DNA of 64,000 nt from Fimbriimonadaceae bacterium (GTDB lineage Bacteria > Armatimonadota > Fimbriimonadia > Fimbriimonadales > Fimbriimonadaceae). The stretch's first letter is position 1. Every line of letters begins with the position of its first letter. Below are positions 42,517-48,172 of this stretch, piece after piece. Both the position numbers and the translations under genes were made by a program. The DNA lies in NCBI GenBank assembly GCA_019638775.1, contig JAHBTD010000002.1:310001-374000 (forward strand), given 5' to 3'. The notes below the pieces were generated by a model that was not told the DNA's origin, did no database searches, and saw nothing but the letters and a program-made list of their open reading frames with translations.

Positions 42517-44742
42517 CTAGACCATGTTGGCGACTTTTTGCTGTGCTTTGCGCAGCCGCATTGTGAGGTCGCTCGCATTCAGAAGGATCACTCGCGTTCC
42601 CGATTCCATGCTTGCCGTAAGTTCGACTTCGGGAACTCGGAAGCTGATGGGATTCGCCTCACCGGAGATGTTGAGGATCAAAGCCGTGTCCTGAAAGTCG
42701 GCGCCTACGATGGCGTCGAACGGGACTCTCCACTTTTTCAGCAACCCGCCGAACGTGATTTCGTCCAGATCAATCGTCAGATTTCCGTTCCCGACCTCGG
42801 TCCATTCTCCTTCGACGAGATCGAAGCGAACCGCATTCGACCGCCAAATCAACTTGGACTCTTCGCGCCCGTCAAAGGCGATCTGTCCTTCGTGGTAAGC
42901 AGCTCGAATAGCAAGGCCAAACCCCGTCTCAAAGTCTGTCACCTGGGCGATGAGCGGCAGGTTGCGGGCCGCCCGATGCCAATCTTCCATCACGAGAGGT
43001 TGCCCTAAGTAGCGTCTCATGCCCGGATTTTTCGTCCTTTGCAAGCGGTGATAAGCACCGTCGATATCAAACTCACACAGGCAGTCTTGGCAAACGAGAC
43101 CGCCGTGGGGGCTGGTCTTTCCAACACCAAACCACCTCATTCCCTCAATCGCCATCAGTCGTCCTTGGAACTCGTGGAGGAAATCGTAAGGATCGTGGGC
43201 GGCGTCGATAAGCGTGATCTGATCGCCTTCGATAAAGTAATCGGCCCCACAGCTGTCGCATTCGGAGTTGCCCGCTCCAGGAGGCAGGTTGGCGGCTACA
43301 CGAGCCCATTCATCGCGATAGAGCGATTTGTAACGGCTCATCGCCTCTGGAACAACCAGCGTATATCGCCCATCGATCTGTGCATCGAACTGAGCTTCAC
43401 AGCCTTGGCAGATGAGGATTTCATCACTGCGCCGAGCCATAGCTTGCCATTCACTCAAGGAGAGCGCAGTGTCGGGCTCAATATTGGTTTCGTGGTTCCC
43501 TGGGTCGGTGAGGGTCAAGACATCGCCGCTTGGGCTGAATCTCGCCTCACATTCTTGGCAAGCTAATTCAGAGACAGGCTTGAAGAGCCCCTTTTTGATC
43601 GGCATCATCAGACCGAATCGACAGATTGGACACGTGGTCAGGCTACTGTGTGTTTTCACCTCTTTCAACGGTGATGCTTTGCATACTGGGCAAAGCTTTG
43701 GATCGATGTGTCGGATGGACACCATACCATCCCGACAGACCGGGCATTGCAGCCTTTTTAAGGGGCGGGGCACTTCCAGCAGGCCTGTGCACTCTGGGCA
43801 TTCCATCTTGTGAAAGCGCAGATTGCTAAGCTCAAGCCGTCGCTGATCAAAGTCCTCGATGCTTGCCAGCATTCCACTGCCCACACGCCCCTCGAAGATG
43901 GCGAGCATGTCACTTGCGGTCTGCGGGCGGGCGCTAAAGTTCATCTCAAGCCCAGCTTCGATGGCTCGCTTTAAGCCATCGGAGACATCGGGACGGAGGC
44001 GCTCAATTGGGATAACAGCCGTCCCTGACATACGATCGCCAGCGCCGGGGGGAGCCGTTCCGGTCAGAGCATGATAAAGTGTCGCGGCAAGCCCATATAA
44101 GTCGGTAGCTGGTCCACGTCGTGCTTTTTCCGAGAGCTGTTCGGGAGGCGCATAGCCCACCGTGAGGATCACGGTTTGGGCTGCGCGACAGTCGGCAAAC
44201 CATTCACGGGCGGCACCAAAGTCGATGAGATACGCTCTGCCTTGCTGGTCAAGCAGGATATTGCTGGGCTTGATGTCTCGATGCAGCGTGCCTTTGTCGT
44301 GCACTTCCTCCAGCGTCTCTAAGAGGTCGCGAAGTGTCTCTTCGGCTTCAGCAATCGAAAGCCGTCCTTTTTGGGCCAGACGCTCCGATAGTGGTAACGC
44401 CGACTCAATGTAGTCGGATGCGTAGTAGGCAGTGCCGTTTTCTGTGAATGAGGCTCGGACCTCTGGAATTCGGTTGGTGCAAAGCTTTTGCATCAACTTT
44501 GCTTCTTGGAGGAAGGTCTGACGCATCCGCAAGTCATGCCCGTCGCCAAGCTGTTCCATGTGGATGACGCCTTTTGCGTCTCTTAGGGCGCCTTCCGGCG
44601 CAAGCTCCTTGATCACGCATATGTCGCCACGAGCTTGATCCAAGGCTTTGTAGGCGATGCCGAACCCGCCACGTCCCAAGACGGATTCAATACGGAATCG
44701 TCCCTGCAACACGGTTCCTGCGGGTAGAGGTGGCAACGGCAT
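42517..44742 (-). CDS. Ser/Thr protein kinase with repeated zinc-knuckle C-terminal region
   Basis: 741 residues. Residues ~15-285 form a Hanks-type kinase: GRGGFG loop 23-28, K45, HRD at 154-156 (catalytic D156, N161), DFG at 174-176, APPE near 198-201. C-terminal to it are eight CxxC pairs at 315, 333, 350, 369, 393, 443, 493 and 549. The first four could form two classical zinc ribbons. The last four start ~50-residue repeats of the form CxxC-x3-F/Y ... L ... W/H-x-x-A/M-x-x-L. A beta-rich end (~655-730, LKKWRVPFDAIVGADFQDTALIL) resembles a PH-like fold. No transmembrane helix. All catalytic residues are present, so it should be active. Single gene. Confidence 0.85.
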   Translation of the reverse strand: MPLPPLPAGTVLQGRFRIESVLGRGGFGIAYKALDQARGDICVIKELAPEGALRDAKGVIHMEQLGDGHDLRMRQTFLQEAKLMQKLCTNRIPEVRASFTENGTAYYASDYIESALPLSERLAQKGRLSIAEAEETLRDLLETLEEVHDKGTLHRDIKPSNILLDQQGRAYLIDFGAAREWFADCRAAQTVILTVGYAPPEQLSEKARRGPATDLYGLAATLYHALTGTAPPGAGDRMSGTAVIPIERLRPDVSDGLKRAIEAGLEMNFSARPQTASDMLAIFEGRVGSGMLASIEDFDQRRLELSNLRFHKMECPECTGLLEVPRPLKRLQCPVCRDGMVSIRHIDPKLCPVCKASPLKEVKTHSSLTTCPICRFGLMMPIKKGLFKPVSELACQECEARFSPSGDVLTLTDPGNHETNIEPDTALSLSEWQAMARRSDEILICQGCEAQFDAQIDGRYTLVVPEAMSRYKSLYRDEWARVAANLPPGAGNSECDSCGADYFIEGDQITLIDAAHDPYDFLHEFQGRLMAIEGMRWFGVGKTSPHGGLVCQDCLCEFDIDGAYHRLQRTKNPGMRRYLGQPLVMEDWHRAARNLPLIAQVTDFETGFGLAIRAAYHEGQIAFDGREESKLIWRSNAVRFDLVEGEWTEVGNGNLTIDLDEITFGGLLKKWRVPFDAIVGADFQDTALILNISGEANPISFRVPEVELTASMESGTRVILLNASDLTMRLRKAQQKVANMV

Positions 44743-44864: not shown

Positions 44865-45806
44865 ATGCTAACGATACTCGCTGCCGCCTTGATAACGCCT
44901 GCTGCATACAGTTTTCCGCCAGGTTCCAAGTTGAACTTTGACATGACGGTGGATCTCCAGGGGTTTCTCCCGATCATGGGTGGGATCAACGGAGACGCAT
45001 CAATCCAGCTGGGTGTGCTGGTTGTCGGGGAGAAGCGCGACGCATCTGGGAACCCGCAAGCATCCAGCGATCTCACAAGCGCGAAAGTGATTTTTGGGGG
45101 AGCTGAACTCCCGTTTGGTCTTGATCAAGTTCGTGATAGTTTCCCAAAGACCACGATTTCTATGAGCCCACAGGGCAAGGTGTTAAAGACTGACGCACCG
45201 GACATCAATCCTCCCGTAACCCTTCCTGGGCTCGACGTGAAGCGCTTTCCAGAGATTAGCTACCTACCCGTCGAGTTTCCAGCCGCGGGAATCGAAGTCG
45301 GGAAGAGTTGGAGTTTCAAGCGTCAGTTCAACGGATCAGAAATCTCTTATACGGTCACCCCTTCCAAGCTCGAAGGCGAAACCCTGCACCTCGACGTAAA
45401 GCTGGACCAGACGAATTTGACTTATGAAGACTCCTCGGGTGGCAATGCGACCAAGCAAAGCGCCTACGCAAAAGTGACGACCGTGATGCAAGGAACGGGC
45501 ACGATCAAGTTCGACCTGAAGCGAGGCGTTGCAAAGGATGTTCGGGTGGTGACCGATTCAACCAGCACATCTGAAGCAGTTGTGGGCGGGAAGAAGACAG
45601 AGCGGAAACTCAAAACCACGCTCAACGTTAAGTTGCGTGAGCTTGGCAAGTCGGCGAACACAAATCCCCCGAAGTCACGGGCACGATACATTGGAGACTG
45701 GCAACTGCCGGATTGGGCGAGCGGGGCTATCGACACGACTCAGCGATGGGCCTCTACCGCAGCCATGCGACTGTTTGCCCTCTTCATGGGTTTTCGTCGC
45801 GTCTGA
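44865..45806 (+). CDS. Exported protein of unknown function
   Basis: 313 residues. Signal peptide MLTILAAALITPAAYS. Beta-rich mature part with EFPAAGIEVGKSWSFKRQFNGSEISYTV and GTGTIKFDLKRGVAKDVRVVTDSTS, a layout also seen in the protein at 4150-5127. A TACAAT box at 44834 and an AGGGTG RBS precede the start. The C-terminus (RWASTAAMRLFALFMGFRRV) is amphipathic, possibly membrane-associated. Function unknown. Confidence 0.68.
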   Translation: MLTILAAALITPAAYSFPPGSKLNFDMTVDLQGFLPIMGGINGDASIQLGVLVVGEKRDASGNPQASSDLTSAKVIFGGAELPFGLDQVRDSFPKTTISMSPQGKVLKTDAPDINPPVTLPGLDVKRFPEISYLPVEFPAAGIEVGKSWSFKRQFNGSEISYTVTPSKLEGETLHLDVKLDQTNLTYEDSSGGNATKQSAYAKVTTVMQGTGTIKFDLKRGVAKDVRVVTDSTSTSEAVVGGKKTERKLKTTLNVKLRELGKSANTNPPKSRARYIGDWQLPDWASGAIDTTQRWASTAAMRLFALFMGFRRV

Positions 45807-46782: not shown

Positions 46783-47475
46783 ATGCCTTCTGCCGTCGTG
46801 CTCCTGAGTGGGGGCCTGGACTCCGCTACCGTTTTGGCTCTTGCCAAATCGGAGGGTTTTGACGTCCACACGCTCTGCATTCTGTACGGTCAGAGGCATA
46901 AGATAGAACTTGAATCGGCGCGGCGAATCTCGGCGATACTCGGCGCAGTCGAGCATCGCGAGGTGCATGTTGACCTTGCCGGGCTCGGTGGTTCTGCTCT
47001 CACCGACGACATCGACGTTCCTAAGGATCGAGCAAGCGAAGAGATGGAGCAGGGCATCCCGGTGACTTACGTACCAGCACGAAACACGGTTTTCCTTTCG
47101 ATTGCGCTTGGATACGCCGAGGTCATTGGTGCAAGGGATATTTTTGTCGGTGTGAATGCCGTCGACTATAGCGGCTATCCTGACTGTCGACCTGAGTTCG
47201 TCGCAGCTTTTGAGCAGTTGGCCAACCTTGCCACTAAGGCAGGCGTTGAAGGCGATAGCTTCAGCATTCACGCGCCCCTGATCGATATGGGTAAGCCAGA
47301 GATTATCCGTACGGGCATCGAGCTTGGCGTGGATTTTGGAATGACTCACTCGTGCTACGATCCTGACGCCGATGGCAAAGCTTGCGGACGATGTGACGCT
47401 TGCCTCATACGGTCGGCGGCTTTCCAAACCCTGGGCATGGAAGACCCTGTGCTCGAGCATCTTCGAAATGGATAA
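46783..47475 (+). CDS. queC: 7-cyano-7-deazaguanine synthase
   Basis: 230 residues. PP-loop ATPase motif [46 protein letters not shown], and a C-terminal zinc site [21 protein letters not shown]. It converts 7-carboxy-7-deazaguanine to preQ0 with ATP and ammonia, in the pathway to queuosine (and deazapurine DNA marks in some bacteria). The queE start overlaps its 3' end by 8 bp, so QueC and QueE are made together. QueD and QueF are not in the window. Confidence 0.95.
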
Positions 47476-48172
47476 ATTACGGATTGCCGAGATCTTTACA
47501 AGCGTTCAGGGTGAGGGCACGCTCGCTGGCACGCCGTCTACATTTGTGCGGGTGAGTGGCTGCAATCTGCGATGTGTGTGGTGCGACACTCCCTATGCAA
47601 GCTGGAATCCTGAAGGACCGACGATGTCCATTCCGGAGATCGAAGAGGCCGTTGAAAAGGGCTGTGTCGAACATGTGGTGCTTACGGGCGGTGAGCCGAT
47701 GCTGTTTGATGCGATTGAGCCGCTTTGTGAGCGGCTGAGCAAGAAGGGATTCCACATTACGATTGAGACAGCGGGTACGGTTTTTCGTAATGTTCCTTGC
47801 GGGTTGATGTCGATCAGCCCCAAACTCTCGAATTCGAAGCCGGGAATTGAAGCGGGATTTGGTTGGACAGAGCGTCACGAGAAGCTGCGCTCTAATCTCG
47901 AACCGCTGAGACGCTTGGTAGAGGGTTATTCCTACCAGCTCAAGTTCGTCGTAAACCCCGACGAAGGACTTGGCGATCTGGATGAAATCGAGGCGGTTTT
48001 AGCTACCCTGCATGAAGAAGCGCGTCAGCACACGATGCTCATGGCTGAAGGAACGTCTGCAGAGACGCTCACAAGGCGGGAAGCGCTGCTGTTGCCCATA
48101 TGCCAAGAGCGCTCCTATAGGATCTCTCCACGGATGCACATTCATCTTTTTGGAAACACGAGGGGCACATAG
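47468..48172 (+). CDS. queE: 7-carboxy-7-deazaguanine synthase (radical SAM)
   Basis: 234 residues from the ATG at 47468, overlapping queC. Radical-SAM cluster motif is [15 protein letters not shown] (CxxxCxxC), with [21 protein letters not shown] ahead of it and LTGGEPML after it. It rearranges 6-carboxytetrahydropterin to 7-carboxy-7-deazaguanine, the step before QueC. The C-terminal part ([30 protein letters not shown]) fits the family. Cytoplasmic; oxygen-sensitive [4Fe-4S] enzyme. Confidence 0.95.

Follow-up and report, generated by a model that had tools for sequence, protein, structure and literature searches.

What has been joined to the catalytic domain of the protein kinase encoded on the minus strand at 42517-44742 of this 64,000-nucleotide stretch of DNA (the window), and what might the addition do? 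The open reading frame specifies 741 amino acids, in which an intact Hanks-type kinase is followed by eight CxxC knuckles and then by a PH-fold domain. The interval 42517-43815, with which an earlier note on this DNA was concerned, corresponds to residues 310-741. The parts of the protein, in order from its N-terminus, are as follows.

43891..44742, minus strand: Hanks-type Ser/Thr kinase domain, residues 1-284 (PF00069, E 2e-33; catalytic residues conserved in most homologues)
43822..43860, minus strand: linker helix, residues 295-307 (AF2 helix 295-306 in the full-length model; homologues keep LD...L..L..FRF)
43579..43812, minus strand: knuckles 1-4 (C315/318, C333/336, C351/354, C371/374), residues 311-388 (conserved cysteines; a two-knuckle element duplicated internally)
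43420..43575, minus strand: unit U1, residues 390-441, with knuckle 5 (C395/398) (unit-unit hhalign with shuffle control; DSSP order)
43270..43425, minus strand: unit U2, residues 440-491, with knuckle 6 (C445/448) (hhalign; DSSP order; both cysteines in all homologues)
43105..43275, minus strand: unit U3, residues 490-546, with knuckle 7 (C495/498) (hhalign; DSSP order; both cysteines in all homologues)
42937..43107, minus strand: unit U4, residues 546-602, with knuckle 8 (C551/554) (hhalign; DSSP order; cysteine conservation)
42889..42951, minus strand: connecting helix, residues 598-618 (AF2 helix 598-618)
42520..42852, minus strand: C-terminal PH-fold domain, residues 631-741 (VIA-align on the predicted model; weak bPH_6 match in some homologues)

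The kinase domain scores 116.4 bits against PF00069, above the gathering score of 31.7, and its motifs comprise the P-loop GRGGFG, K45, E80, HRDIKPSN (154-161) and DFG (174-176), with K45, D156 and D174 all present; the earlier description of a complete Hanks kinase is thereby borne out. As in other Hanks-type bacterial Ser/Thr kinases (PF00069; PknB-like), a complete catalytic domain is combined with a modular C-terminal extension. In contrast to the PknB-like kinases, the window protein has no transmembrane segment (maximum KD19 0.89) and no PASTA domain, and possesses instead a soluble zinc-knuckle repeat and a PH fold. PADLOC matches to PD-T4-6 and mad6 cover the kinase domain only and give no reason for a defence-gene label, and the sole PADLOC match of the tail by itself, a weak one to typeIV_Cas8 (E 0.004), was taken as chance.

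The four later knuckles belong to a repeat that is apparently undescribed. No Pfam or NCBIfam model exceeds its curated cut-off on U1-U4, either in the window protein or in its homologues, so that the absence of a named domain holds as the earlier note had it, and the match to an existing zinc-ribbon or DZR family that would have told against its proposal did not occur in these scans. The PDB matches by sequence are likewise weak and fall mostly on zinc-finger-like stretches, chiefly zinc fingers and RING proteins at knuckles 1-5. Judged from sequence profiles, U1-U4 are four homologous copies of a single unit some 50-57 residues long, because hhalign beats shuffled controls with and without the knuckle and because the same order of elements is predicted in each. 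The six pairs of units score 35.9-52.0, compared with maxima of 20.5-28.2 under a column-shuffle control that keeps the knuckle, and for each of the six pairs 0 of 60 shuffles reach the observed score. With the CxxC knuckle removed, the unit-unit scores are 15.4-31.9 and the shuffle maxima 12.2-14.6, all pairs lying above their controls; the smallest margin, a thin one, is that of U2 and U3 (15.4 versus 14.0). When the ribbons and the PH region served as controls in a first-pass comparison, hhalign probabilities between units and non-units were at most 26%.

The AF2 model (pLDDT 92.6) predicts one order of structural elements for all four units: strand, knuckle, strand, strand, a short strand, and helix. 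Counting from the first cysteine as 0, the leading strand ends at 0, the next two run from about +6 to +10 and about +13 to +19, the short strand falls within +28 to +36, and the helix begins at +34, +31, +37 and +34 in U1 to U4, respectively. The likeness of the four units in a predicted structure, when compared by secondary-structure order, therefore agrees in 4 of 4, and the proposal that one unit was duplicated fourfold stands up to the shuffle controls. In its particulars the earlier note was correct about the motifs (CQECEARF, CQGCEAQF, CDSCGADY and CQDCLCEF are all in the open reading frame) and about the spacings of 50, 50 and 56 residues; the four late knuckles that it placed at 393, 443, 493 and 549 are present, but two residues further on, at 395, 445, 495 and 551. 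The W/H...A...LP helix that it described is clear in U2 and U4, only partial in U1 (EWQAMA) and shifted in U3 (RWFGVGK).

The segment that closes the protein, earlier called PH-like, is confirmed as a PH fold over the C-terminal ~110 residues on the predicted model. VIA-align matches model residues of about 320-437 to many PH, RanBD and EVH1 chains, the best with Z 10.4 and rmsd 2.6 over 93 residues. The PH-fold family bPH_6 (PF10756) is matched weakly by 6 of 29 homologues (best E 6e-4), whereas the window protein itself has no match. The top Foldseek matches are chains of GRK2, a eukaryotic kinase that likewise combines a kinase with a C-terminal PH fold and that to our knowledge lacks zinc units; the alignment covers the PH fold only and is no evidence of kinship. 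Foldseek matches (PDB, BFVD) to sliding clamps and DDB1 have low probability in lists otherwise filled by the PH domain, and were dismissed as chance.

The whole arrangement is conserved within the phylum Armatimonadota. A sequence search gave matches in 40 of 101 relatives and a profile search in 54 of 291 genomes of the phylum, although the two weakest matches, in G077 and G122, are instead to a topoisomerase-like protein and to a small zinc protein. Matching genomes mostly have one kinase locus, a few of them split into two matched pieces; one homologue (L087) is located in a relative (G161) represented by a single contig of 5,231,762 bases. Homologues are about 30-45% identical, and in three distant ones, L077-L079 from further families of the phylum, the order of kinase, eight knuckles, helical stretch and PH-like end is unchanged. 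Two of these, L078 and L079, have an extra CxxC...CxxC pair N-terminal to the kinase. Homologues are known so far in Armatimonadota alone, the searches having covered genomes of the phylum, plasmids, viral contigs and two pattern-limited scans of wider genome contigs: none was found among plasmids and viral contigs, the pattern-limited scan with the whole protein found no relatives, and the one with an alignment of five homologues as query found 13. No description of this kinase was found in literature searches.

Conservation of the tail equals that of the catalytic domain (mean 0.50-0.52 for the zinc region, 0.52 for the kinase). Each of the 16 cysteines is retained in 26-30 of 30 homologues, C445, C448, C495 and C498 in all 47 distinct homologues, and E557 and D559 of U4 are invariant in 44. 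The full set of eight knuckles is preserved in 37 of the 47 distinct homologues, and this presence in homologues is what the earlier note would have counted as support. The four repeats are ancient as well as real, and together with the rest of the tail they constitute a genuine accessory architecture, at the level of the phylum, carried by a kinase of ordinary type. This defines an unrecognised repeat and a kinase architecture conserved in Armatimonadota.

How the knuckles may be paired in metal sites is suggested by the lineages that have lost some of them. Alignment and tree indicate that knuckles 1 and 8 were lost together in one genus (g27: L051, L020 and L021) and independently in L029, and knuckles 4 and 5 were lost together in L031 and L038, which were counted as one event. 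Single losses affect knuckle 8 in the catalytically changed homologues of another genus (g4: L080, L094 and L095), and in L078 one half of knuckle 2 is gone. The pair of knuckles 3-4 is a duplicate, within the protein, of the pair 1-2 (hhalign probability 96.5). The paired losses and this duplication suggest that the 16 cysteines make four putative Zn(Cys)4 sites, for which the simplest pairing is 8-1, 2-3, 4-5 and 6-7. A site formed by knuckles 4 and 5 fits the AF2 model, in which a strand directly after knuckle 4 (74-79, model numbering) and another directly before knuckle 5 (86-91) give the strand order of a classical ribbon. The closed pairing is put forward as a hypothesis because there are only three independent double-loss events; by our own combinatorial count, ~6% of triples drawn at random from the 28 pairs would agree this well with a single matching. 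A nested pairing (1-8, 2-7, 3-6, 4-5) can be hypothesized that fits the losses too. An analysis of residue coupling in the 47 sequences (Neff 44) mainly picked up noise columns, and its result was discarded.

More ordinary zinc ribbons would account for part of the same region. Knuckles 1-2 and 3-4 might form a double zinc ribbon, with the units paired as 5-6 and 7-8 or binding metal singly, and the scaffold role would be the same. Spacings of 18-20 residues, as found here, are common in ribbons, the internal duplication is that of a two-knuckle element, and knuckles 1-4 have weak, sub-threshold matches to the ribbon families DZR (PF12773), Zn_ribbon_6 (PF07191) and Zn_ribbon_FGT1_2 (PF23548), with which they share ribbon-like CxxC spacing. 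DZR is matched by 6 of 29 homologues (best E 0.0038) and Zn_ribbon_6 by 9 of 29 (best E 0.044), but neither is found among the Pfam matches of the window protein at E<=10, and PF23548 is the only one of the three to match it, below its cut-off. The window protein differs from these families in its four further, unrecognised units and in its losses: the co-losses that such ribbons predict (1-2, 3-4, 5-6 or 7-8) are found in no lineage among the 47 distinct homologues, and those observed, 1 with 8 and 4 with 5, point to another pairing. We regard the ribbon layout as rather unlikely, and the earlier division into two self-contained four-cysteine ribbons and four separate knuckles is probably wrong, since both co-losses cross that boundary. 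The closed pairing, if true, would be a zinc-repeat arrangement that is not known to us in any described family. Its fullest form, in which the eight knuckles would be a closed, velcro-like ring with four shared Zn(Cys)4 sites, knuckle 1 closing on the last unit, and hence a new circular zinc-repeat fold serving as a kinase scaffold, is offered tentatively, as a possibility with the odds somewhat against it.

The catalytic domain has changed in some lineages that retain the tail. Most homologues are predicted to be active kinases, but 10 of 45 scored, in several lineages, differ at K45, D156 or D174 and keep the tail (L006, L014, L020, L021, L031, L035, L051, L080, L094 and L095); most of these are likely pseudokinases. 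Because several such lineages keep it, the tail probably has a role of its own as a scaffold or partner-binding module. Knuckle loss is nevertheless more frequent among the catalytically changed homologues (7 of 10, versus 3 of the 35 others; Fisher p 2.5e-4, a value that ignores kinship), an association from which we read that the tail is tied to kinase function.

The same association, and the fusion of eight cysteine pairs to a kinase, could be taken to favour a redox or metal sensor, in which oxidation or loss of metal would rearrange the units and switch the kinase on or off. Such switching appears improbable, given that L029 and L038 have dropped knuckle pairs yet keep their catalytic residues, while L006 and L014 have changed catalytic residues and all 16 cysteines, a pattern more like that of structural sites. 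Zinc ribbons often bind nucleic acid, and a tail of zinc ribbons and repeated helices might do so in a manner coupled to phosphorylation; no similarity to a nucleic-acid-binding family exceeds the Pfam or NCBIfam cut-offs, however, and with no support from the PH domain or the gene context this reading is given very little credence.

The interpretation that we favour, at about even odds, is a soluble Hanks kinase joined to a compact, metal-stabilised scaffold of eight knuckles (sites 2-3, 4-5, 6-7 and 8-1) and a PH fold, with a partner or scaffold role. In this scaffold the 16 cysteines would form four Zn(Cys)4 sites, neighbouring knuckles being paired around a closed chain. Its part would be mainly structural: kinase and PH domain would be kept in register with each other, and a surface would be offered to a partner or substrate; the tail would thus recruit or position targets, and may restrain the kinase. 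The AF2 model contains no metal; the metal binding, the pairing of sites and the scaffold or partner role are our inferences.

Next to the kinase gene, at 44865-45806 on the plus strand, is a conserved gene that is divergently transcribed, with ~120 bases between the two. Its product has a hydrophobic, signal-like N-terminus and no match in Pfam. Homologues are found in 51 of 61 relatives and, read from coordinates, adjoin the kinase gene in 15 of the 30 kinase-bearing genomes among those 61; because the gene is also present where the kinase was not found, it is not a dedicated partner of the kinase. Further along the plus strand, at 46783-48172, are QueC-like and radical-SAM QueE-like open reading frames, which, judged from their translations, are probably involved in synthesis of a queuosine precursor.
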